Virus record (IMG/VR): IMGVR_UViG_3300030012_002710 | Location: 1-64,000 of that record | Length of the DNA: 64,000 nucleotides | From: a virus | Strand: one strand, 5' to 3' | In this document: piece by piece, positions 454-53,965 of the stretch | How positions within the stretch are numbered: the first letter of the stretch is position 1 | Layout: each line of letters starts with the position of its first letter | Notes under the pieces: generated by a model | What the model saw: only the letters and a program-made list of their open reading frames with translations | What the model was told of the DNA's origin: nothing | The model's database searches: none | Program-made: the position numbers and the translations under genes

Positions 454-494
454 GAGATAAATGGTTAATGTGAGTTCGATTCTCACCTATCTCA
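454..494 (+). ncRNA. Mini-tRNA-like element 1 (acceptor stem plus T-arm only)
   Basis: GAGATA (454-459) pairs with TATCTC (488-493). Inside, GTGAG (470-474) and CTCAC (482-486) close a canonical 7-nt T-loop TTCGATT. The connector between 5' acceptor and T-stem is only about 10 nt and contains GG (ATGGTTAAT), like the D-loop guanines that dock on the T-loop. There is no anticodon arm and no room for one. The same architecture recurs at 2262-2305 with compensatory base changes. It ends 14 nt before the next ATG. Function unknown; it could be an RNase P/Z or CCA-enzyme substrate. Confidence 0.6.
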
Positions 495-508
495 CTAAAT
501 TATAAAAT

Positions 509-748
509 ATGAATAAAGTAAAATTCGATAGAGATGAAGTATATAATGTATGGATTCAAAATCACTGTGAATTAACACATGACGAAATCTCTGATTACAT
601 TGATAAAATTAAATTTTTGTACGAAGAAAATGATGATGAAGACTTTAAATTCCTTCAAAATCAAGACCCTTTAGAGATAGATGATATGTGGTCAAATTAC
701 TGGGAAAGTTTTAAATGGAATTTTCCAAATAGAATAAAATTAAAATAA
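509..748 (+). CDS. Hypothetical acidic protein
   Basis: A 79-aa protein rich in Asp, Glu and aromatic residues (several Trp in the C-terminal third). It starts 14 nt after mini-tRNA-like element 1, so its mRNA 5' end could be set by processing of that element. No recognised domain. It is the first of four consecutive tiny genes separated by only a few bases. Confidence 0.65.
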   Translation: MNKVKFDRDEVYNVWIQNHCELTHDEISDYIDKIKFLYEENDDEDFKFLQNQDPLEIDDMWSNYWESFKWNFPNRIKLK

Positions 749-754
749 ATAAAT

Positions 755-901
755 ATGAATAAAAGTATAACTGACATACTCGATTATGTATTAGTGGAAT
801 ATGAACACTTGACTACTGTTCAACAATGTAACTATATTCTAAATAAATATGATATAGAAATTACTAATGACATATTGATGTATATGAAAAATAATGGATA
901 A
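755..901 (+). CDS. Hypothetical 48-aa protein
   Basis: ATG at 755 opens a 48-aa frame ending TAA at 899-901 (MNKSITDILDYVLVEYE start). It has the same AAATAAATATG start context as adjacent genes and sits 6 nt after the previous stop and 1 nt before the next ATG. The sequence is mostly predicted helix with no recognised domain. Real by packing and context rather than by homology. Confidence 0.55.
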   Translation: MNKSITDILDYVLVEYEHLTTVQQCNYILNKYDIEITNDILMYMKNNG

Positions 902-902
902 T

Positions 903-1043
903 ATGAATAAAAGAAAACAAGTTAAAATAACATTATATAGTTATCTTAGTAATGATAACTTAAATAAATTAATGGAAAAAATGTTATGGGATTCAGAGTA
1001 CAGTTATGTACTTGAAGACTGTGAATGGAAAATAAATAAATAA
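903..1043 (+). CDS. Hypothetical 46-aa protein
   Basis: ATG at 903, one base after the previous stop, opens a 46-aa frame (MNKRKQVKITLYSYL start) with a basic N-terminus and acidic C-terminal half. Tight co-directional packing and the A-rich start context support it. No recognised domain. Confidence 0.5.
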   Translation: MNKRKQVKITLYSYLSNDNLNKLMEKMLWDSEYSYVLEDCEWKINK

Positions 1044-1047
1044 TAGT

Positions 1048-1197
1048 ATGGAAATAAGAATATACGATGGTCAAACCGACAACGAAGTAGGTAGATTATA
1101 TCTATCTCAAAGTGACGGAAAACCATCTAAAAAAGAAATAATAAATAATATAAAAGAAAACTACAATATAGATACTGTATATTGGAGTGTAATGTAA
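1048..1197 (+). CDS. Hypothetical 49-aa protein
   Basis: ATG at 1048 opens a 49-aa frame (MEIRIYDGQTDNEVG start, ending DTVYWSVM). The alternation of strands and a helix suggests a small alpha/beta fold. It lies 4 nt after the previous stop. No homology recognised. Confidence 0.5.
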   Translation: MEIRIYDGQTDNEVGRLYLSQSDGKPSKKEIINNIKENYNIDTVYWSVM

Positions 1198-1208
1198 AAA
1201 CAAATAAT

Positions 1209-1523
1209 ATGATTGTAAAAAGAAATGATTTTAATAGATACTTAATCCACGAGTTTATGAATGATAAACTACCTGGATATAGTTCAGAATTTAATGGTAA
1301 GTGGGTATTTTCACTTGACCATCATTATGAAAATGGACCTAAAGTCGCGTACGTTAAAACCGATACAGGTCATGAAACTATTTATCTTCGTGATGAAGAT
1401 GATGTTGACTATACTTGTCAAAGAATTCAAGAGACATTAATCAATTTAGATGATATATATGAATCAGAGAAAAGAATTGATGAGTATTGTGTTGAAAATC
1501 CGTGGACGAGACACGGAACTTAA
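1209..1523 (+). CDS. Hypothetical protein
   Basis: About 104 aa when started at ATG 1209 (MIVKRNDFNRYLIHEF). An in-frame ATG at 1182 would overlap the upstream gene, and 1209 has the usual AATAATATG context, so the shorter start is preferred. The protein is acidic with a hydrophilic, helical C-terminal half. No recognised domain; a compact early phage protein of unknown role. Confidence 0.65.
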   Translation: MIVKRNDFNRYLIHEFMNDKLPGYSSEFNGKWVFSLDHHYENGPKVAYVKTDTGHETIYLRDEDDVDYTCQRIQETLINLDDIYESEKRIDEYCVENPWTRHGT

Positions 1524-1544
1524 TGTGTAATTTAAATTAAATAT

Positions 1545-2021
1545 ATGAAATTAGTAGAAAAACTAAAAAATGGTACAGAAATGTACAGACTTGATGATGG
1601 TAGACTTGGTAAAATTTACCCTAAATCTGGTTATGTTAGAGTGACTACACTCAGACATGGTATCAGAGATGGTAAATATCACCGTGAAGATTCTACAAAA
1701 AACAGTAGATGGTATCAAATAAATAAAAAAGAAAAGTATAAGGATAAAGGTATGAAATTCAGTCATGTTAGAAGAATATTAATACCAAAAAGAAAAGACC
1801 AACTTGCTTTTCTTAAAGCGTTCAATGATAAAAATGCAGATAAAGTGATGCAAATGAAGAAAATGTTAGAAGGATATGCCAAAGGTTTAAGATGGTTTTC
1901 TAACTTTGAAGCAGAAAAAAGAGCTTTACTTCATATTAACTTAGATGATAAGTTAAATCAAATCAAAGATGCTTTAAAATCTATTGAAAAAGATGTTACT
2001 TCAAGTAATTTCTGGAAATAG
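1545..2021 (+). CDS. Hypothetical basic protein
   Basis: A 158-aa strongly basic protein. The N-terminal 60 residues hold short Gly-rich strands (NGTEMYRLDDGRLGKIYPKSG), and the C-terminal half is predicted helical and possibly coiled. The charge suggests nucleic-acid binding, but no known domain is evident. Promoter-like copy 2 begins 4 nt after its stop, so this gene probably ends a transcription unit. Confidence 0.65.
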   Translation: MKLVEKLKNGTEMYRLDDGRLGKIYPKSGYVRVTTLRHGIRDGKYHREDSTKNSRWYQINKKEKYKDKGMKFSHVRRILIPKRKDQLAFLKAFNDKNADKVMQMKKMLEGYAKGLRWFSNFEAEKRALLHINLDDKLNQIKDALKSIEKDVTSSNFWK

Positions 2022-2025
2022 AATT

Positions 2026-2058
2026 ACAAACCAAATACAATTTACTTTAGATAATATA
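2026..2058 (+). promoter_or_regulatory. Promoter-like element, copy 2
   Basis: ACAAACCAAATAC, 9 variable bases, TAGATAATATA: same order and spacing as copies at 67, 4013 and 9693. It fills the gap between the stop at 2021 and the zinc-ribbon gene at 2072, leaving a 13-nt A/T leader. Location and geometry support a promoter for the 2072 gene and the RNA element behind it. Confidence 0.72.
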
Positions 2059-2071
2059 ATAAAATATATAT

Positions 2072-2263
2072 ATGAAGTATTGTAAATGTGGTAATATTCT
2101 TCATCCTGTTCGTTTAGAATTAGGTTATAATAAATGTGTGCAATGTTCTGACATTCAACAAGTTAGTTATATACCTATTATTGCAAACAAACAGGTTTTA
2201 GAAGTACAAGTTGTTAGTCAAGAACTAAGTGCACAAGTACATAAATCTTGGCGACGCAAATAG
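2072..2263 (+). CDS. Small zinc-ribbon-like protein
   Basis: A 63-aa protein with CxC-G near the N-terminus (CKCG, residues 4-7) and CVQC about 16 residues later, a four-cysteine arrangement typical of a rubredoxin-like zinc ribbon. The C-terminal part is hydrophilic and ends in a basic tail. Its TAG stop overlaps the first base pairs of mini-tRNA-like element 2, so gene and RNA element are physically coupled. Zinc binding is inferred from cysteine spacing only; the function is unknown. Confidence 0.6.
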   Translation: MKYCKCGNILHPVRLELGYNKCVQCSDIQQVSYIPIIANKQVLEVQVVSQELSAQVHKSWRRK

Positions 2264-2305
2264 AGTTGCATGGTGATTTAGTGGGTTCGATTCCCACTCA
2301 ACTCT
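2262..2305 (+). ncRNA. Mini-tRNA-like element 2 (acceptor stem plus T-arm only)
   Basis: AGAGTTG (2262-2268) pairs with CAACTCT (2299-2305). GTGGG (2281-2285) and CCCAC (2293-2297) close T-loop TTCGATT. The 12-nt connector contains ATGGTGATTTA, again with GG. Compared with element 1 (454-494), three base pairs change on both sides (two in the acceptor, one in the T-stem), which is evidence for a selected structure. It starts inside the stop codon of the 2072 gene. The trailer CTAACTTTAAAT after it is nearly identical to the one after tRNA-CAT at 4264. Anticodon and D-stem are absent. Confidence 0.62.
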
Positions 2306-4190: not shown

Positions 4191-4264
4191 TGCGCGGTAG
4201 AGCAGATGGTCAGCTCGCGAGTCTCATAAACTCGAGGTCGGTGGTTCGAATCCACCTCGCGCAC
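4191..4264 (+). tRNA. tRNA with CAT anticodon (Met, or Ile2 if modified)
   Basis: A full cloverleaf: acceptor TGCGCGG/TCGCGCA (one G-T wobble), D-stem GAGC/GCTC with loop AGATGGTCA, anticodon stem CGAGT/ACTCG with loop CTCATAA (anticodon CAT at 4225-4227), and T-stem GGTGG/CCACC with loop TTCGAAT. CCA is not encoded; the discriminator is C. The anticodon stem lacks the GGG/CCC of initiator tRNAs, so elongator Met or Ile2 is more likely than fMet. It is followed by CTAACTTTAAAT and then the ATG at 4284. Confidence 0.93.
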
Positions 4265-4283
4265 CTAACTTTAAATTAAATAA

Positions 4284-8650: not shown

Positions 8651-9382
8651 ATGGATAAAGAAGATATTTTAAAAAGGTTAAAAAATGATAATGACTACTA
8701 CGGTGACTTTGGTAAAAAGTTTCTTAGTAATTCAGATATTAAAACCTTATTAAAAAATCCTTTAGCACTTGGACAACCAAGTAAACCTTCAGCTGCATTT
8801 CTAGTTGGTGGATACTTACATACTGCTATACTTGAACCAAATAAATTAAAAAAGTATAAAGTAATAGAATCTACCACTAGAAATACGAAGGCATATAAAG
8901 AGATTTCAGATGGCGAATTATGCTTACTACAACACGAAGTTGATAAAATAGAATTAATGGTAGATACTATAATGCAAAATAATGTTTGCAAAGATCTCAT
9001 TAAAAGTAAAAATGTAGAGTATGAAGTACCAGGTCTGAAAGAAATTGAAGGAGAGATGTGGAAAGGTAAAGCTGATATAATTAATCATGATGAAAGATTA
9101 ATTGTTGATTTAAAAACAACATCAGATATTGATAAATTTAAATATTCAGCAAACCAATATAACTATGACAGTCAAGCATTTATTTATAATCAACTATTTA
9201 ATTATGAAATGCTATTTATTGTTATTGATAAACAAACTCTTCAAATAAAAATTTGTGAATGCTCTGAAGAATTTTACGAAAAGGGTCAACGTAAAGTACA
9301 AGAGGCAGTATCACAATATCAATTATTTTTTAAATCAAAAGACTTTGACCCTAAACAATATTTTAAAACAGAAACTTTATAA
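8651..9382 (+). CDS. PDDEXK exonuclease (RecE/Cas4-like)
   Basis: A 243-aa nuclease. The catalytic signature is at about residues 120-165: E near YEVPGLKEIEGEMWKGKADI (GKAD providing the first Asp), then LIVDLKTTSDIDKF (D-x-K motif), then a conserved QYNYDSQAFIYNQ helix with the Q-x3-Y pattern of RecB-type nucleases. It would resect ends to give single strands for the ERF protein upstream. Its stop overlaps the next ATG. Confidence 0.85.
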   Translation: MDKEDILKRLKNDNDYYGDFGKKFLSNSDIKTLLKNPLALGQPSKPSAAFLVGGYLHTAILEPNKLKKYKVIESTTRNTKAYKEISDGELCLLQHEVDKIELMVDTIMQNNVCKDLIKSKNVEYEVPGLKEIEGEMWKGKADIINHDERLIVDLKTTSDIDKFKYSANQYNYDSQAFIYNQLFNYEMLFIVIDKQTLQIKICECSEEFYEKGQRKVQEAVSQYQLFFKSKDFDPKQYFKTETL

Positions 9383-14069: not shown

Positions 14070-15038
14070 ATGGGATTATTTGACAAAAGAATACCTTATA
14101 AACCTTTTGAATATCCAGAATATTATACAGAAGGTTGGCTTAAACAAGCACAAGCTTTTTGGTTACACACAGAAATACCTATGTCTAGTGATGTAAAAGA
14201 TTGGAATGAAAAGCTTACACCAAGTGAGAAAAACTTAGTTGGTAATATATTACTTGGATTTGCACAAACAGAATGTGCCGTGTCAGATTACTGGACACAA
14301 AAAGTAGTAGGATGGTTTCCTAAACATGAGATACAGCAAATGGCTATGATGTTTGGATCACAAGAAACTATACACGCTGTTGCTTATTCATATTTAAATG
14401 AAACTCTTGGTCTTGAAAATTTTGAAGCGTTTTTACAAGACGAAGCAACAATGGAACGCTTTGATAATTTAGTTAGTTATGATGGAAATAAACCCACAGG
14501 AATTGCAAGAAGCATTGCTATATTTAGCGCCTTTGCTGAAGGTGTTAGCCTTTATTCTGCCTTTGCTGTTTTATATAGTTTTCAGCTCAGAAATCTGTTA
14601 AAAGGTATTGGACAGCAGATGAAATGGAGTGTGCGTGATGAGTCACTGCACAGTAAGATGGGTTGTGCTTTGTTCCGTCATATGTGTGAAGAAGATAAAA
14701 CATTATTAAATAATTGTAAAAAAGATATATTAGATGCAGCAAAAACAATGCTTAAAGCAGAAGAAAAATATATTGACAAAATGTTCGAGCAAGGAGATAT
14801 TGAAAACCTTAAAGCTTACAACCTCAAACAATTTATTAGAAAACGTCTCAACGAAAAAATTGTTGAACTCGGTTACAAAGACGAGCGGGACTACTTTAAA
14901 TTTGACAAAAAAGGAGCAGAAGATCTTGACTGGTTCTATCATCTTACCGGGGGCCACACTCATACTGATTTTTTTGCTGTGCGTCCGACTGATTATTCAA
15001 AAGCTAACGAAGGTGAAGACTTTGAAGACATGTGGTAA
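14070..15038 (+). CDS. nrdB: Ribonucleotide reductase class I, beta subunit
   Basis: A 322-aa R2 subunit carrying the metal cofactor. Metal-binding helix motifs: TEC at residues 67-69, QETIH at 98-102, Tyr at 106, FAEGVSLYSAF, and RDESLHSKMG. By spacing (31 residues to Glu99) the first ligand aligns with E. coli Asp84 but is Glu68, as in the chlamydial class Ic protein. The radical Tyr (Tyr106, E. coli Tyr122) is kept. It works with NrdA (15534) to make dNTPs. Two small genes separate the subunits. Confidence 0.92.
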   Translation: MGLFDKRIPYKPFEYPEYYTEGWLKQAQAFWLHTEIPMSSDVKDWNEKLTPSEKNLVGNILLGFAQTECAVSDYWTQKVVGWFPKHEIQQMAMMFGSQETIHAVAYSYLNETLGLENFEAFLQDEATMERFDNLVSYDGNKPTGIARSIAIFSAFAEGVSLYSAFAVLYSFQLRNLLKGIGQQMKWSVRDESLHSKMGCALFRHMCEEDKTLLNNCKKDILDAAKTMLKAEEKYIDKMFEQGDIENLKAYNLKQFIRKRLNEKIVELGYKDERDYFKFDKKGAEDLDWFYHLTGGHTHTDFFAVRPTDYSKANEGEDFEDMW

Positions 15039-15301: not shown

Positions 15302-15534
15302 AAGAAAGTACAATATTAGGAAAATTTAAAAAAGTAGAAAAACAAATGTTAGCAATAACAAATGTTATTAAACGTTTAATTCAAGATATAGGATCAGTAG
15401 AATCTATAGCTAATGGTACATTAAGTGCTTTAAAAATATCAATGACTGAAAAAGAGTGGGATGCTATAGTTGAAGAATTAAAACAAAAACACCAAGAAGA
15501 AAATAAACAAACAGATAAAAAGTTAGAACTATAA
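15298..15534 (+). CDS. Hypothetical helical protein
   Basis: A 78-aa protein, helical with a heptad-like N-terminal half (FKKVEKQMLAITNVIKRLIQ) and a Gln/Lys-rich tail. It overlaps the membrane-protein stop by 4 nt and the nrdA start by 1 nt. No recognised function. The middle resembles the short coiled proteins often found among phage nucleotide genes. Confidence 0.6.
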   Translation: MKESTILGKFKKVEKQMLAITNVIKRLIQDIGSVESIANGTLSALKISMTEKEWDAIVEELKQKHQEENKQTDKKLEL

Positions 15535-17252
15535 TGTGGAATAACGAATGGGAAAAAGGTGTTGATTATCCTTCATGGGGTAACAATGATATATATAAAC
15601 AAACTATATCTGGTGGTTATTTATTTAATGGTGAATCACCCCGTGATGCTTACATGCGAGTTGCTAAAACAGTAGCAAAACGTTTATACAAACCAGAACT
15701 TGCAGATAAGTTTTTTAATTATATATGGAATGGTTGGCTGTGCTTAGCTTCACCTGTGCTATCTAATACTGGTACAGATAGAGGTCTACCAATAAGTTGT
15801 TTTGGAATAGACGTAGCCGATAGTATAAACGATATAGGTAAGAAAAACCTAGAAATGATGTTACTTGCAAAACACGGTGGGGGTGTAGGTATCGGAGTTA
15901 ATATGATTCGTCCTGCCGGAGCTAAAATTACAGGTAATGGAACTTCAGACGGCGTTGTCCCTTTTTGCAAAATATACGACTCAACTATACTCGCGACAAA
16001 CCAAGGCGCCGTTAGAAGAGGAGCTGCAAGCGTTAATATCAATATTGAACACAACGATTTTCTCGACTGGCTTGAAATTAGAGAACCTAAAGGAGATGTC
16101 AATAGACAATCTCTTAACTTGCACCAGTGTGCTGTCGTTGGTGATAAGTTTATGCGAAAACTTGAAGCAGGAGATGCAGAAGCTAGAAAAAAGTGGTCAA
16201 GACTTATACAAAAACGTAAAGCCACTGGAGAACCGTATATCTTATTTAAAGGAAATACAAACAAAGCTAATCCAGCAGCATATAAGAAAAATAGTTTAAA
16301 AGTACATATGACAAACATATGTAGTGAAATAGTATTACAAACAGATGAATCACATAGCTTTGTGTGTTGTTTATCTAGTTTAAATTTAGCAAAATATGAA
16401 GAGTGGAAAAACACTAATATTATACATGATGCTATATGGTTCCTTGATGGGGTACTTGAAGAGTTTATACAGAAAGCTAAAGGTAAAATTGGGTTTGAAA
16501 ACTCAGTAAGATCTGCTGAAAAAGGTAGGGCTTTAGGTCTTGGTGTATTAGGTTGGCATACATATCTTCAAGAAAAAGGTTTACCTTTTGAAGGATTATT
16601 AGCTCAATATGAAACAAGAAAAATATTTAGTCAAATAAAAATAGAATCTGAAAGAGCATCAATGGCTTTAGCTGAAGTTTATGGTGAGCCATTATGGTGT
16701 GTTGGTACAGGTATGCGTAACACTCATTTAAGAGCAATTGCACCAACAGTTTCTAATAGTAAACTAGCAGGTAATATATCACCTGGTATTGAACCATGGG
16801 CTGCAAATGTATTTACAGAGCAGTCTGCTAAAGGTACATTTATAAGAAAAAATCCTACATTAATTAAATTATTAAGAAAATATAAATTAAATACTAATGA
16901 AATATGGGATAAAATATTAGAAGATGGTGGATCAATACAAGATATAAAAGAACTTGACAATATAGTTTTCGCTAATGATATACCTGTAAAAGAAGTATTT
17001 AAAACATTTAAAGAAATAAATCAACTAGAATTAGTTGCACAAGCTGGTTTAAGACAACAATATATAGATCAATCAGTATCTCTTAATCTTGCGTTTCCAT
17101 CAGAAGCAACACCTAAATGGATTAATAAAGTACATTTAGAAGCTTGGAAACAAGGTATTAAAACTTTATATTATATGAGAACTGAATCTGTGTTACGTGG
17201 AGATATAGCTGCTAAAGCTATGGATGATTCTTGTGTAGCTTGTGATGGATAA
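15534..17252 (+). CDS. nrdA: Ribonucleotide reductase class I, alpha subunit
   Basis: A 572-aa catalytic subunit, shorter than typical (about 750 aa) because the N-terminal ATP-cone is absent, so dATP inhibition through that domain is not expected. Active-site Cys89 (ISCFGID), Asn261/Cys263/Glu265 (NICSE), Cys278-Cys279 (FVCCLSS), radical-transfer Tyr546-547 (LYYMRTE) and C-terminal Cys567/Cys570 redox pair are all present. It is the last gene of the plus-strand block. Part of the middle (about 15900-16020) is 43-47% GC, above its flanks. Confidence 0.93.
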   Translation: MWNNEWEKGVDYPSWGNNDIYKQTISGGYLFNGESPRDAYMRVAKTVAKRLYKPELADKFFNYIWNGWLCLASPVLSNTGTDRGLPISCFGIDVADSINDIGKKNLEMMLLAKHGGGVGIGVNMIRPAGAKITGNGTSDGVVPFCKIYDSTILATNQGAVRRGAASVNINIEHNDFLDWLEIREPKGDVNRQSLNLHQCAVVGDKFMRKLEAGDAEARKKWSRLIQKRKATGEPYILFKGNTNKANPAAYKKNSLKVHMTNICSEIVLQTDESHSFVCCLSSLNLAKYEEWKNTNIIHDAIWFLDGVLEEFIQKAKGKIGFENSVRSAEKGRALGLGVLGWHTYLQEKGLPFEGLLAQYETRKIFSQIKIESERASMALAEVYGEPLWCVGTGMRNTHLRAIAPTVSNSKLAGNISPGIEPWAANVFTEQSAKGTFIRKNPTLIKLLRKYKLNTNEIWDKILEDGGSIQDIKELDNIVFANDIPVKEVFKTFKEINQLELVAQAGLRQQYIDQSVSLNLAFPSEATPKWINKVHLEAWKQGIKTLYYMRTESVLRGDIAAKAMDDSCVACDG

Positions 17253-38503: not shown

Positions 38504-39955
38504 TTAAACTCCTTTGAATAATACAAAGTTGTTTGCAGCTTGAGTTACTAAACATCTTTCTGATAGGAAGTTGACTTCCATAGCATCAAGATTAGAAGTG
38601 TAAGCACCTCCTGCTGAACCAGTTAACCAAGACTTCATTCGTCTGTCTTCTGTTTGAGAAGCTCTATATCTGACGTGTAAGAATGGTCTTCTAATATTTG
38701 TACCTAAAATTTGATCGTATACAGTTGATGTACCTGCTGGTATTAAAACTCCTTCAATAGACTGAGTACCATCAATAGCACCTCTTGTAGAAGCGTCATT
38801 TAAGTATTTCCAGTCAGTTTTGTAGAAGTCATATGAACCTCTTCTAAAACCACTAAAACCTAAGTTTAAAGCCATTTCTTCAGAGTTTTCAAATAAACCG
38901 TAAGCAGTACCACCACCTTGACCGATAGATATGTTTGACAACATATTATCAAATTCTAGTGCAGTTGATCTTTGTAAGAACAACATATTTTCTTCAATAG
39001 CACCTTGAGTGTCTAAGTTTTTAAGTATTGCATCAAAGTCATCTAGACCAGAAGCTCCAGAAAAACCTACTTCAACATTACCTCTTGATGAGATAGCAGC
39101 AAAAAGACCTTCAGTACCTTTAAAACCTGAAGCAGCAGCGTTATTTCCAGCGGCCGCAGCAGCGATCTCACCTTCAACACATACCATTTCTAGGTAATCT
39201 TCAAATCTTAATCTTGTTTCAGATTCAGCTTTTAAGTACCATAAATAACCTGTAGTACCATCTTCAGTAGTTACTTCAACCCAACCAATTTGAGCCATAT
39301 CAGAACCATTTATTGTATAAACATTTCTAATTATAATTGGTGAATTGTTGTACTGTTGAAAAGAAGGTGTAATAGTTACTTGTGGTTGAACAGTATTATT
39401 TAAGTTGTTAAGACCAGCGCCTGCATTAGATGTAGAAGCACCTTTAACAAATTCTGAACCATAAACAAATATTTTTACTGACGTACCTAAGCCACTAAGA
39501 TCTGTAGTTAAATAAGGAGCAACAGTCACTGCACCTGTAGTAGTGTTAGATGCTGTTACAACACATTTAGCTTCATTACCAGCATCGTCTAAAACTACAA
39601 TAGTTTGTCCGGGAGATATTACATTTCTTGTAACACCTGGAGCTGTAGCAGCTGGTACTGTAATTATAGATGGGTTAGCCTGGTCGTTAACACAATTATC
39701 ATATGCTATATGTAATCTGTTTTGCTCTGACCAAACAACTTGATCTGAAGTCAGAGGCATTTCAGCACCTACCATACGTAAAAAACCAGAAAGAGTTCTG
39801 TTTCCATATCTTTCTACTTCTTGTTCGTATATTTCAGGTAGATATTGCTGAGCAAAATCATTATTACCATCTGTAAAAGATAGGTAATTGCTGGCTAATA
39901 GCTGCTGATTAGGAGCAGGAACTATTGAGCCAAACTGTGGAGTTAAAATTCCCAT
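38504..39955 (-). CDS. Major capsid protein
   Basis: 483 aa. The N-terminus (LASNYLSFTDGNNDFAQQYL, PEIYEQEVERYGNRTLSGFL) and C-terminus (LHVRYRASQTEDRRMKSWLT) fit an HK97-fold capsid protein of crAss-like size. It follows a scaffold-like gene and the portal in the usual order. Gly/Ala-rich loops (EIAAAAAGNNAAASGFKG) are probable surface elements. It is bounded downstream by a strong hairpin, consistent with high expression. Confidence 0.8.
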   Translation of the reverse strand: MGILTPQFGSIVPAPNQQLLASNYLSFTDGNNDFAQQYLPEIYEQEVERYGNRTLSGFLRMVGAEMPLTSDQVVWSEQNRLHIAYDNCVNDQANPSIITVPAATAPGVTRNVISPGQTIVVLDDAGNEAKCVVTASNTTTGAVTVAPYLTTDLSGLGTSVKIFVYGSEFVKGASTSNAGAGLNNLNNTVQPQVTITPSFQQYNNSPIIIRNVYTINGSDMAQIGWVEVTTEDGTTGYLWYLKAESETRLRFEDYLEMVCVEGEIAAAAAGNNAAASGFKGTEGLFAAISSRGNVEVGFSGASGLDDFDAILKNLDTQGAIEENMLFLQRSTALEFDNMLSNISIGQGGGTAYGLFENSEEMALNLGFSGFRRGSYDFYKTDWKYLNDASTRGAIDGTQSIEGVLIPAGTSTVYDQILGTNIRRPFLHVRYRASQTEDRRMKSWLTGSAGGAYTSNLDAMEVNFLSERCLVTQAANNFVLFKGV

Positions 39956-43671: not shown

Positions 43672-45894
43672 CTAATTTAGTATTTTTGAATTTACTCCTT
43701 TATTATCATATTTTTTGAAACCTAAAGGTACAGTTGTTAATTTTCTTTCAGCAACAGGTCTATATCTATTTTTATTACAAGCCATAATAGCAAGACCAGA
43801 GCTTATAGAAGCATCATGTGATGTTCTATTATTAATGTTAAATTGTGCCCAGTCTTCTAATGTGCGTTGAAAATACATATCACCGTAATTTTCACCATCA
43901 AATCCTATAAAATTTTCTATATAATCTTCTATAGCAGCTGCATGAGCTTGTTTTATATCTTCACTAGAATTAGGTATTCCACCTATCTCTCTTTCTGTTA
44001 CAGATAATTTATTATATATTTTATCAGGTCTATTCATTGAATAACCTCTATAACCTCTACGTTTTAAATAATATAAAAGTCTAGGTTTGTTATTTTCTGC
44101 AAGTATAGGCATACCGTAAAATACAATTGCCATTAAAACATCTTCAAAAAATATTTCTGCAGTTTGTGGTCTAGCTATATACTCTAAAAAAAATGTATTA
44201 GGCGGAACATCCGCCATTGTAAACTTAGTTAAACCATGTAAAGATCCTTTAGATCCTCTACCGTCAACAGTTCCTGATATATCATATGGATCACAACCAA
44301 AAGCACCACAGTCTTCATTAGCTGGATATTTTATACCATTTTTAACTATATATCTATTTTGTAAATTAATAGGTGGTGTCCATGAAATAAAAAATCTACC
44401 ACTGTTATTAGGAACAAATATAACTCTAGTATCTTTAATCCCACTTTCCCATTGAAAATTACCTTGTGTAATTGCTGTAGAGTGTTTTAAATCTTCATTA
44501 TAATCTATTTGTTCATAAATTTTTGCAAGATTAAATAAAGATTCTTTAGCTTCATCTCTAAAAGCATGTTTTTCTGTTCTTGGAAATTGTCTATATAATT
44601 CGTTTAAACCGTCTTGATCATCTTTTAAACCTTCAACTTCGTTTTCCCAGTGTGATATAACCCCGATCTCAATTGTTGTTCCATCGATGCTTTTAACTGG
44701 TTTTTCTGGTGTGTCGAATACAGGAAAGCCATAAGTATCGATGTATCCTTCGTAGTTCCATTCCATAGGTATGAACAAAGAATATAATCCTGAACCAGTC
44801 TGTCCGTTGCGGTTTCTTTTTGTAACGTCTGAAGCATCATATAGTTTTTTAAAATTAGCACCACCTTTATCTAAAGCATTAGAGGTAGAACCCATCATAC
44901 ATTTACCTACAATCCTACTTCCAAGTCTTAACGTTGTCTTCGTGACCCTCCAGTTGTTGAGGATGTTGTCCGGTCTCTCCCATTTACCCGACTCATCATG
45001 GGCGAGTAACCTGAGTTTCTCCCCGTCGTAGGAGTTGTCACCGGTATTCTTCCAGTCAATGGTAGTATCGAGCCCGATGAGTTCCTCGGGGGTGTCGTTC
45101 TGCTCGATCTTACGGCGGGTGAACTTCGATGCCGGTACCCTGTATGCCAACTCAGTCTTTGGCCTGTCCATACCGTCCTGAATTGGTTTGAAAAAAAACG
45201 GGTAGTTGACCGATATGGGTACCACTTTATCTGTGAACATCTTCTTTGCATCTGCACCAGTCTTGGATAAAATGCCATACCTGGAGTCAGCGGAAATTGT
45301 AGCTTGATGAACGAGTTCTGAGGATGCCATGAAGCTAAAGCCAGACCGTCTATTCTTGAGGTAACACATTCCATAGGATCTATGATCCAACTTACACGCT
45401 TCCCAGAATATAAAGAATAAGCGGTTTGATTCTCTGAACTGCGCAGAGCCAACGTCAATTTTTGTCCACTGCAAGTACATATAATGAGAGCCAGTAATGT
45501 AAGTAGGAATACCTTTGTTATAGAAGCTAAAGCCTTGTTCCCTTCTTTTAAACTCTTCATCAATATAATCATACCATTTATTTTTAAAATCAAGCGATGT
45601 TTGATTCCAATCAAAAACAGTTTTTAATTTAGTTAATTGTTTTGGATAATCAAAAACCTCCCAATATTGCTCTTGTTTTTTATTAGATCTTTTATACGTT
45701 TTTTCTAGTAAAGGTAAAGCTATTTTTAAACCTTGTATTTCATATATTTCACCAATTTTACCAGTTTTACTTATAATAATAACATCATATTCTTTATTAT
45801 AACCTGGTTCCCATTTATTATATCTATTATTTCTAGCTATAATTTTTGGTTTTATATGATTATCTAAAACTTTATATAATGTTTGTTTATACAT
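43672..45894 (-). CDS. Terminase large subunit
   Basis: 740 aa. ATPase: a Walker A-like KNRRSGFSF (about residues 179-187) lacks the usual GK(S/T) lysine, and Walker B is LRLLAHDES (about 294-302). C-terminal nuclease: FGCDPYDISG (first acid), PILAENNKPRLLYYLKRRGY (second) and RTSHDASISSGLA (third). It packages DNA into the head. The ATPase half contains a stretch of 52-60% GC, far above the genome, see 44640-45540. It overlaps the TerS candidate by 1 nt. Confidence 0.88.
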   Translation of the reverse strand: MYKQTLYKVLDNHIKPKIIARNNRYNKWEPGYNKEYDVIIISKTGKIGEIYEIQGLKIALPLLEKTYKRSNKKQEQYWEVFDYPKQLTKLKTVFDWNQTSLDFKNKWYDYIDEEFKRREQGFSFYNKGIPTYITGSHYMYLQWTKIDVGSAQFRESNRLFFIFWEACKLDHRSYGMCYLKNRRSGFSFMASSELVHQATISADSRYGILSKTGADAKKMFTDKVVPISVNYPFFFKPIQDGMDRPKTELAYRVPASKFTRRKIEQNDTPEELIGLDTTIDWKNTGDNSYDGEKLRLLAHDESGKWERPDNILNNWRVTKTTLRLGSRIVGKCMMGSTSNALDKGGANFKKLYDASDVTKRNRNGQTGSGLYSLFIPMEWNYEGYIDTYGFPVFDTPEKPVKSIDGTTIEIGVISHWENEVEGLKDDQDGLNELYRQFPRTEKHAFRDEAKESLFNLAKIYEQIDYNEDLKHSTAITQGNFQWESGIKDTRVIFVPNNSGRFFISWTPPINLQNRYIVKNGIKYPANEDCGAFGCDPYDISGTVDGRGSKGSLHGLTKFTMADVPPNTFFLEYIARPQTAEIFFEDVLMAIVFYGMPILAENNKPRLLYYLKRRGYRGYSMNRPDKIYNKLSVTEREIGGIPNSSEDIKQAHAAAIEDYIENFIGFDGENYGDMYFQRTLEDWAQFNINNRTSHDASISSGLAIMACNKNRYRPVAERKLTTVPLGFKKYDNKGVNSKILN
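44640..45540. other. GC-rich island inside the terminase gene
   Basis: Counting 60-base blocks from 44941 to 45180 gives 53%, 52%, 60% and 55% GC, against about 30% in flanking sequence. The transition is fairly sharp near 45540 and gradual towards 44640. The reading frame is intact, so only synonymous choice changes (many third-position G/C). The island covers about residues 119-418, mostly the ATPase domain. Confidence 0.8.
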
Positions 45895-52171: not shown

Positions 52172-52428
52172 AAAACAACAACAACATCTTGTAATTTAAT
52201 TACAATAAATTTTTCTTTTTCAAATTCAATACCGTGCCCTGCATGACGATCATAAAATATATTATCATCTTTTTTTATAGTTGTTATATCATCACTAACT
52301 GATACAACTTTAGCTTTTCTGTATCTTATATCTTCCCTATCTTTTTCTATTATAAGTAAACCACCTTTTGTTTTATCAGTTTTTACTTTTTCAGGAATTA
52401 TTATTATATTATTACCTACTGCCTTCAT
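52168..52428 (-). CDS. groES: Co-chaperonin GroES
   Basis: 86 aa. Cpn10 features: AVGNNIIIIPEKVKTDKTKG, mobile-loop GGLLI, then VVSVSDDITTIKKDDNIFYD and VIKLQDVVVVL. It caps the phage GroEL encoded just upstream; the groEL stop region overlaps the groES ATG by 17 nt. Slightly shorter than host GroES (about 92-97 aa). It probably adapts the folding chamber to phage structural proteins. Confidence 0.88.
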   Translation of the reverse strand: MKAVGNNIIIIPEKVKTDKTKGGLLIIEKDREDIRYRKAKVVSVSDDITTIKKDDNIFYDRHAGHGIEFEKEKFIVIKLQDVVVVL

Positions 52429-53965
52429 TAATTCTTAAATTATTAATTACACAATCAGTTGATAATATTGTTGTAGCTACAGATGCAGCATTAACAAGAG
52501 CACTTTTTGTAACAAGTAAAGGATCAATAATACCTGCTTTAATCATATTTACAGTTTTACCTGTAACAACATTTAATCCTTCACCTTTATTTTTAACTAA
52601 GCTTTCTGTATAATCTATACCTGCATTATCTAAAATAACTTTAAATGGATATGTTATAGCATTTAATAATACCAGTTCAGCTTCGTTTTTTGTTTTAATA
52701 TGTTGTGATGCGTTTAAAAGCGCTATACCACCACCAGGTACAATACCTTCTTTAATAGCAGCTTTTGTTGCACATATAGCATCTTCTATTCTATCAGATT
52801 TTTCTTTTAATTCTATATCTGAATTTGCACCTACTTTTACTATTGCTATTTTAGCTGATAATCTAGCTAATCTTTTTTCAAGCCTTATAACATGTGCAGG
52901 TGAGGGTAAACTTGCTAAATCTTTTTTTACTTTATTTATAAGTGATAATACTTCATCACTTGGATCACCAACTTGTATTATGGTATCTTTTTCATCTGTT
53001 GTAGATTTTAAACAACTACCTAAAAATTCTGGTTGTATTAAATCCATATCATCACCTAAGTCTTCATTAATGACAGTAGCTCCTGTAAGCAAAGCTAAAT
53101 CATCTAATGTTTCACGTTTATTAACACCATATGTTGGTGCATTTACAATATTTACTTTAATATTACCTTTTGTTTTATTCATGGCAAGTGTAGCCATTAC
53201 TGGTGCTTCTACATCTGCTATTATAAGTAAAGGTATGTTTTTCTTTATAACGTGTTCTAATACAGACTGTATTTGTCTTATATTTTCAACTGGTGATTCT
53301 ATAATTAAAACAGCAGGTTTTTCAAGTTCTGCAGTTTTCTTTTCTTTATTTGTAATAAAATGTGGATTAGTTAATCCTTTATTATATTGAACACCATCAA
53401 CTAGCTCTACATCTGTTTCTGGCATTGATGAATGTTCCATCATCACTACACCTGTTTGACCTACAGCTCTAAAAGCATCACCTATAATTTTTCCAAGCTC
53501 AGGATCATTATTTGTAGATATACTAGCTATTTGATCAATCATATCACCTTTTACAGGTATAGATATATCTTCTAAATATTTAAGTACTTTTTTAACTGCT
53601 TTATTAATGTTTTCTTTTAATTGTCTAGAATTTACATTAACATTTTTTGCTAAACTTATTATAGCATGAGCAAGTACAGTTGCGGTAGTAGTACCATCAC
53701 CAGCTTCATTTACTGTTTTTCGTGCTGCTTCTTTTAATAAAGTAGCACCCATATTTTCTACAGGATCTAATAAAACTATTGAATTTGCTACAGTAACACC
53801 ATCTTTTGTAATCATTGGTTTACCTTGATCATCTTCAAGTAATACACATTTACCGCTAGCTCCTAAAGTAGAGCTAACGGCTTGTGTGAGTTTATCAATT
53901 CCTTTAAATACTTGATTTTGAGCATTTTTGCCAAAATTAAGATTTTTGACTATTAAGTCTGACAT
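52412..53965 (-). CDS. groEL: Chaperonin GroEL
   Basis: A 517-aa group I chaperonin. The equatorial ATP site is visible as DGTTTATVLA, and the later DAICATKAAIKEGIVPGGGI contains the catalytic region around Asp398 of E. coli. Apical-domain strands (LVDGVQYNKGLTNPHFITNK) are present. The C-terminus lacks the GGM tail of bacterial GroEL. Probably needed to fold capsid or tail proteins, or to supplement host chaperonin. Confidence 0.93.
   Translation of the reverse strand: MSDLIVKNLNFGKNAQNQVFKGIDKLTQAVSSTLGASGKCVLLEDDQGKPMITKDGVTVANSIVLLDPVENMGATLLKEAARKTVNEAGDGTTTATVLAHAIISLAKNVNVNSRQLKENINKAVKKVLKYLEDISIPVKGDMIDQIASISTNNDPELGKIIGDAFRAVGQTGVVMMEHSSMPETDVELVDGVQYNKGLTNPHFITNKEKKTAELEKPAVLIIESPVENIRQIQSVLEHVIKKNIPLLIIADVEAPVMATLAMNKTKGNIKVNIVNAPTYGVNKRETLDDLALLTGATVINEDLGDDMDLIQPEFLGSCLKSTTDEKDTIIQVGDPSDEVLSLINKVKKDLASLPSPAHVIRLEKRLARLSAKIAIVKVGANSDIELKEKSDRIEDAICATKAAIKEGIVPGGGIALLNASQHIKTKNEAELVLLNAITYPFKVILDNAGIDYTESLVKNKGEGLNVVTGKTVNMIKAGIIDPLLVTKSALVNAASVATTILSTDCVINNLRINEGSR

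Follow-up and report, generated by a model that had tools for sequence, protein, structure and literature searches.

Plant mitochondrial t-elements are tRNA-like structures situated at gene borders, where they are cut at both ends by RNase P/RNase Z, define mRNA ends, and are CCA-tailed and uncharged (PMC11658184). Bacterial RNase P correctly cleaves model hairpins consisting of an acceptor stem, a T-stem, and a T-loop, as in the artificial hairpin AT1 (PMC11143913), and takes its measure along the T-stem/acceptor stack, starting at the tRNA elbow, without requiring the D-loop (PMC4919913). Here, a 64,000-nucleotide (nt) stretch of viral DNA (positions 1 to 64,000 of the 67,717-bp IMG/VR record IMGVR_UViG_3300030012_002710; referred to below as the window) is described, which carries two mini-tRNA-like elements on its plus strand, at positions 453 to 495 and 2262 to 2306, each composed of an acceptor-like stem, a short connector containing ATGGT, and a T-arm with the loop TTCGATT. 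These elements are, we are almost certain, members of a real, selected family of tRNA-like RNAs, with representatives in considerably more than 100 viral contigs as well as in cultured phages of Mycobacterium and Cellulophaga.

The phage elements share with t-elements their tRNA-like nature and their location at gene borders, but they have neither an anticodon arm nor more than a remnant of the D-arm, occur in phages of bacteria, and are present in many copies per genome. Their minimal architecture is nearly that of AT1, although these natural elements also keep a mini D-loop whose GG is able to complete the elbow. With tRNA (RF00005), they have in common the T-arm, an acceptor/T-stem stack of approximately 12 layers, and a predicted contact between GG and T-loop, but they measure only 43 to 45 nt and are devoid of an anticodon arm, a few variants in the mycobacteriophages Indlulamithi and Cuke having an extra arm. 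Elbow-type tRNA mimicry is also a property of the tRNA-like domain of transfer-messenger RNA (tmRNA), of mascRNA, and of the tRNA-like domain of the bacterial Y RNA YrlA, which, unlike the phage elements, are parts of larger RNAs with other arms; the Ro-binding stem of YrlA was not encountered, as the 43- to 45-nt element has no further arm. A first-pass annotation of the window, made from the sequence alone, had invoked tmRNA and mascRNA, a comparison which holds with regard to elbow mimicry but which missed the nearer analogue, the t-elements. The C4 RNAs of phages P1/P7 and the CI RNA of P4, which are processed by RNase P, similarly represent phage transcripts that borrow this host enzyme; these are, however, single regulatory RNAs, whereas the elements described here are repeated and intercistronic, and the Rfam C4 family did not match them. 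As interpreted here, the elements would work like tRNA punctuation while being of a distinct, smaller design and occurring in a new setting. None of the families of Rfam 15 reaches its cut-off with them, and no description of phage mini-tRNAs or tRNA-like elements, or of such elements under the names of these phages, was found in the open-access literature, subscription papers being outside the scope of the search and large candidate lists (PMC8040213) being able to hold the family unnamed.

Element 1 is a full match to covariance model R1 (51.0 bits, E value of 3.5e-12). With pairs read from the sequence, its acceptor-like stem is formed by six contiguous pairs between positions 454 to 459 and 488 to 493, the 3' strand being followed by ACTAA, and its T-arm, GTGAG-TTCGATT-CTCAC, occupies positions 470 to 486. 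Element 2, likewise a full match (55.7 bits, E value of 1.4e-13), has seven contiguous acceptor pairs between positions 2262 to 2268 and 2299 to 2305, followed by CTAAC, and a 6-bp T-arm, AGTGGG-TTCGATT-CCCACT, at positions 2280 to 2298, in which A2280-T2298 is the extending pair. The two copies, therefore, comprise 6 + 5 bp with one mismatched layer and 7 + 6 bp, respectively, with the T-stem of the family usually being 6 bp long. Both structures, reported earlier at 454 to 494 and 2262 to 2305, were found as described, and the three double base-pair changes noted between them are all correct. Single-sequence folding of the two copies yielded z-scores of only -1.2 and -2.4, and the three double changes together with the folding within the window are insufficient as evidence of selection; proof rests on homologues. 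The next-best R1 match in the window has an E value of 0.3, and a descriptor scan of the window for short-connector elements with a TTCGATT T-loop returned these two copies only, plus a genuine tRNA-Met (4191 to 4265), which was also found by ARAGORN and Rfam. ARAGORN called neither element as a tRNA and no tmRNA in the window, and at the Rfam gathering cut-off the tRNA-Met was the only window match to RF00005, the two elements being unmatched. Below threshold, element 2 gave a local match to the T-arm of tmRNA only (15.5 bits; cut-off, 47) and, in antisense orientation, a match to a plastid 5' untranslated region motif.

Homologues were sought using a pattern in which ATGGT, the spacer, and the T-arm were fixed and both acceptor strands were left free. 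At least 119 stretches in viral contigs conformed to it, and at least six contiguous acceptor pairs flanked the core in 51 of the 103 distinct matches listed, compared to 3.0% when the flanks of different matches were swapped; those that do not pair include real tRNAs, e.g., a tRNA-Gly with the anticodon loop TTGCCAT. A second pattern (AATGGTT...) avoids such tRNA matches, and 39 of the 48 loci with distinct 5' flanks, among the new viral loci listed, pair over at least 6 bp (3.2% when swapped). From bacterial and archaeal genomes totaling 257 billion bases, the same pattern recovered 17 stretches, some of which are located among phage structural or replication genes as judged by PHROGs (Corynebacterium, Lapidilactobacillus, and Lachnospiraceae). 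The 87 second-pattern viral loci listed contain 92 covariance model matches below an E value of 1e-4, all of full model length. With the descriptor, 157 elements were identified across loci, of which 144 do not overlap a tRNA, whereas reversed sequence yielded none. Model scans were negative for Maribacter phage Panino, Flavobacterium phage elemoF, several Manatee Spring phages, the tested Gordonia phage, or two of the three tested Rhodococcus phages; ReqiDocB7 contains a weak T-arm fragment only. The weak matches in Caulobacter phage phiCbK (E value of 0.005) are annotated tRNAs and show the margin which separates tRNAs from the elements. A single 61-nt element used as a nucleotide query against the phage collection matched ordinary tRNA-Gly genes. 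One locus (L080:9147-10279) harbors five copies in 1.1 kb, in which the mini D-loop is of the CTGGTG type and as many as 14 layers are paired; these possibly represent a subfamily.

The covariation of these homologues carries the case for a selected structure. The alignment was set in a fixed register; MAFFT mis-registered members with short connectors. Among 44 aligned members, 12 of 13 pairs are changed on both sides, 225 double-change cells were counted against 59.7 in shuffled alignments, and 93.7% of cells are paired (54.8% when shuffled); the covariation signal was lost once the partner strand was displaced by 1 to 3 columns either way. A second, later set of 65 distinct rows contained 258 double changes versus 85, in an alignment which was fitted to the model and hence leans towards it, the acceptor letters being absent from the search pattern. 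Covarying homologues in related phages, the absence of which had been named beforehand as decisive against the initial proposal, are thus abundant, and both the selection of the structure and its description as a reduced, elbow-only tRNA-like RNA are strongly supported. Stem sequences differ among copies within one genome; therefore, it is the structure that is kept and not the sequence.

The connector had been described as 10 to 12 nt long, with no fitting D-stem or anticodon arm. The presence of ATGGT and the lack of an anticodon arm were confirmed, the latter because connectors of 8 to 16 nt leave no room for one, but the ATGGT loop is closed by one covarying pair (A460-T466 within positions 460 to 466 of element 1; C2269-G2275 within positions 2269 to 2275 of element 2). 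This pair, which played no part in the first search, forms in 43 of 49 cases (A-T, 22; T-A, 13; C-G, 7; G-C, 1) and, in the later set, in 50 of 66, versus 29% expected under independence. Because the closing pair covaries, ATGGT is read from the sequences as a five-base shrunken D-loop closed by a one-pair vestige of the D-arm. Its GG is nearly invariant across the family and, by analogy with tRNA G18/G19 and positions 55/56, could contact the TTC of the TTCGATT T-loop. The features of the tRNA elbow/T-arm module are thereby present, namely a 7-nt T-loop, a T-stem of 5 to 6 bp stacked on an acceptor-like stem, and a GG partner. Of 120 elements, 61 have a combined stack of 12 layers and 113 one of 11 to 13 layers, corresponding to the tRNA length; the split between acceptor and T-stem varies although the summed helix length stays, as a reader gauging the tRNA stack in the manner of a ruler would require. 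CCA is seldom encoded, as would be expected of an RNase Z substrate; in Indlulamithi and Cuke, the acceptor is usually followed by AC. The G3-U70 alanine determinant, sought in the pair counts, is not general.

The placement of the elements relative to genes was assessed for non-redundant elements from all contigs, controls being random positions and the mirrored position of the opposite strand. An open reading frame (ORF) of at least 60 codons ends between -25 and +12 nt from the 5' end of the element in 55 of 87 cases, compared to 5 of 87 mirror positions and 11% of random ones, and in 71 of 87, the start of an ORF of 40 or more codons lies no more than 70 nt downstream (mirror, 25 of 87; random, 43%). 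Being co-directional with the genes and located at their borders, the elements very likely act in cis as intercistronic elements. Among 16 relatives of the window's virus, the element occupies the same neighborhood while the next small genes derive from differing families (clusters of six, three, and two, in addition to unrelated genes); the element is kept while the downstream gene is swapped and, hence, does not depend on any particular downstream gene.

This arrangement is also seen in cultured phages. Mycobacterium phage Indlulamithi (NC_048824.1) has 11 matches in successive intergenic gaps on one strand, located 4 to 11 nt past the preceding stop, with the exception of one copy at 134 nt, and 33 to 44 nt ahead of the next start where the annotated start is credible. 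Phage Cuke (NC_048696.1) displays the same arrangement with nine matches, and nearly every intergenic gap of approximately 90 nt in the two genomes contains an element. At the Rfam gathering cut-off, RF00005 matched only annotated tRNAs in both phages, leaving the elements unmatched. In both, a second short hairpin of variable sequence lies directly 3' of the element and ahead of the Shine-Dalgarno sequence, its stem reaching at least 5 bp in 12 of 22 cases versus 7% of shuffles. Gaps devoid of a model match hold variants, one of which adopts a four-arm tRNA-like fold with a 9-bp anticodon-like arm (z-score, -3.6), another a long inserted helix, and a third a possible 4-bp D-stem recognized by eye, the predicted minimum-energy fold being different. 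Enlarged variants at L201:5968-6045 (Indlulamithi) and L202:10560-10655 (Cuke) have an extra arm at the place of the tRNA anticodon arm. Such variants, in which an anticodon-like arm or a longer D-stem is present, suggest a possible link between the mini-elements and tRNAs.

In Cellulophaga phage phi19:2, one copy (43845 to 43889, L302:1846-1890; E value of 3.4e-7) is flanked by an apparent terminator on one side and by the structural gene gp056 on the other; the TTG annotated as the start of gp056 lies within the element, and an in-frame ATG occurs 24 nt later. Annotated starts likewise fall inside or before the element for Indlulamithi gp53 (L201:7963-8007) and Cuke gp043 and gp044 (L202:8435-8479 and 8718-8762). 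Because in-frame or Shine-Dalgarno-preceded ATGs lie downstream of the element, the starts at these phi19:2, Indlulamithi, and Cuke copies are probably misannotated.

Based on the shape of the substrate, we consider it somewhat probable that host RNase P and/or RNase Z process the elements. The fuller proposal, that these elbow-only mini-tRNAs form a phage-wide family of punctuation marks letting host tRNA-processing enzymes cut polycistronic messages into single-gene ones, is one to which we give about equal weight for and against. According to this proposal, the anticodon-less tRNA mimics would act in cis between co-transcribed phage genes, the RNA folding into a stack of approximately 12 acceptor/T-arm layers capped by an elbow in which TTCGATT would be docked on the mini D-loop GG. 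This shape would be measured by host RNase P on the 5' side and by RNase Z or CCA-related enzymes on the 3' side, and a cut at one or both ends would split the polycistronic transcript just past the upstream stop and 15 to 45 nt before the next start, so that each message would gain its own defined end. In the two mycobacteriophages, the following short hairpin would cap the new 5' end, while after one-sided cutting, the element would remain in place to cap the 3' or 5' end. A processing or end-forming mark acting in cis is favored because the elements are stop-adjacent, start-proximal, co-directional, and repeated in gap after gap, diverged in sequence yet constant in structure, and endowed with a tRNA-length stack and elbow. 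The earlier suggestion that they punctuate the early mRNA via RNase P/Z is the best fit among the roles then proposed, which included the putative recruitment of EF-Tu or the CCA enzyme, but "early" is too narrow, since elements follow a major tail gene (locus L185) and major head genes (L019 and L078) and precede the structural gene of phi19:2. An apparent excess of "major head protein" upstream of the elements came down to just two proteins, those of L019 and L078, each matching several families, and no enrichment is claimed; the five "anti-restriction" neighbors are ArdC-like early genes of related contigs.

Several observations weigh against punctuation by tRNA-processing enzymes. Some copies are not stop-adjacent, and some have 13 to 14 layers; the G1-C72 pair favored by RNase P is not conserved, the first pair of the 6-bp register being G-C in 15 of 44; and the spread is patchy, with element matches at E values of 0.001 or less in 18 of the 49 contigs that share the window's ligase-like gene (some contigs being fragments) and none in Panino or elemoF. 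The phi19:2 element, moreover, lies downstream of an apparent terminator, within a 5' leader, a position which would suit uncut, stable structures that shield mRNA ends from exonucleases or insulate the translation of neighboring cistrons, as would stop- and start-adjacent sites in general, whether as a 3' barrier or a 5' leader. We regard this alternative as unlikely, although it is the strongest of the rivals, as a plain hairpin would suffice for such a function, whereas the kept T-loop, mini D-loop GG, and tRNA-length stack point to a reader of tRNA shape.

In another scenario, mini-tRNAs of approximately 44 nt would be released and act in trans, possible functions including that of a decoy of RNase P, the CCA enzyme, EF-Tu, or tRNA-sensing defenses, with which the tRNA-like elbow and stack and the many copies in some phages (Indlulamithi, 11 matches) are compatible. 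This scenario appears improbable, as something acting in trans would not have to be repeated in almost all gaps with constant spacing to the stop and start codons, and acceptor sequences vary among the copies of one genome. That the elements are decaying or recombined phage-borne tRNA genes is very improbable: tRNA carriage is common in phages and the variants described above do occur, but the same compact design is found in unrelated phages, decay would not generate compensatory changes at 12 of 13 pairs, and the elements lie at fixed spacing between genes, outside tRNA clusters. The T-arm sequence is a known attachment site (att) core in tRNA genes, which would accommodate a DNA-level feature such as an attachment site, recombination hotspot, or terminator; however, the 5' acceptor strand and mini D-loop covary, neither of which an att core would have, and the empty reversed-sequence control contrasts with 144 tRNA-free elements. 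Chance or a DNA-level origin is refuted by the covariation and retains a negligible probability. Processing in cis by host tRNA-processing enzymes is the reading we prefer.

With regard to the genes around the two window copies, all on the plus strand, a 76-amino-acid (aa) ORF (159 to 389) upstream of element 1 resembles by eye, without a score, the 75- to 76-aa ORF that recurs upstream of the element in five of the 16 compared relatives. A 17-codon ORF of uncertain gene status (407 to 460) has its TAA stop (458 to 460) inside the acceptor strand of element 1, and a 79-aa ORF (509 to 748) starts 14 nt past the element. The stop (TAG, 2261 to 2263) of a 63-aa ORF (2072 to 2263) overlaps the first two bases of element 2, 24 nt past which a 62-aa ORF (2330 to 2518) starts. 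The window protein encoded at 38504 to 39955 matches annotated virion structural proteins and places the virus nearest, among named phages, to one from spring water, to Maribacter phage Panino, and to phages of Flavobacterium and Cellulophaga, because of which a flavobacterial host is likely for this virus. The window tRNA-Met has the anticodon loop CTCATAA and a T1-A72 pair and may be initiator-like. A 517-aa ORF on the minus strand (52412 to 53965) presumably specifies a GroEL-type chaperonin, and the plus-strand ORFs at 14070 to 15038 and 15534 to 17252 are taken to encode the small and large subunits of ribonucleotide reductase, respectively, as recognized from their sequences.

Neither Rfam nor the phage records examined list the family, which ranges across Mycobacterium and Cellulophaga phages, phage-like regions of Corynebacterium and Lapidilactobacillus genomes, and many marine viral contigs. 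Its recognition corrects annotation, several gene starts having been placed inside the element, and it offers a natural minimal substrate with which to define the recognition requirements of RNase P, RNase Z, and the CCA enzyme. If the elements are indeed read by RNase P/Z, the most conserved RNA-processing machinery of the cell would shape phage transcripts, a mode of phage gene expression for which no description was found, and they would represent the bacterial-virus counterpart of mitochondrial tRNA punctuation and about the smallest natural tRNA mimic known.
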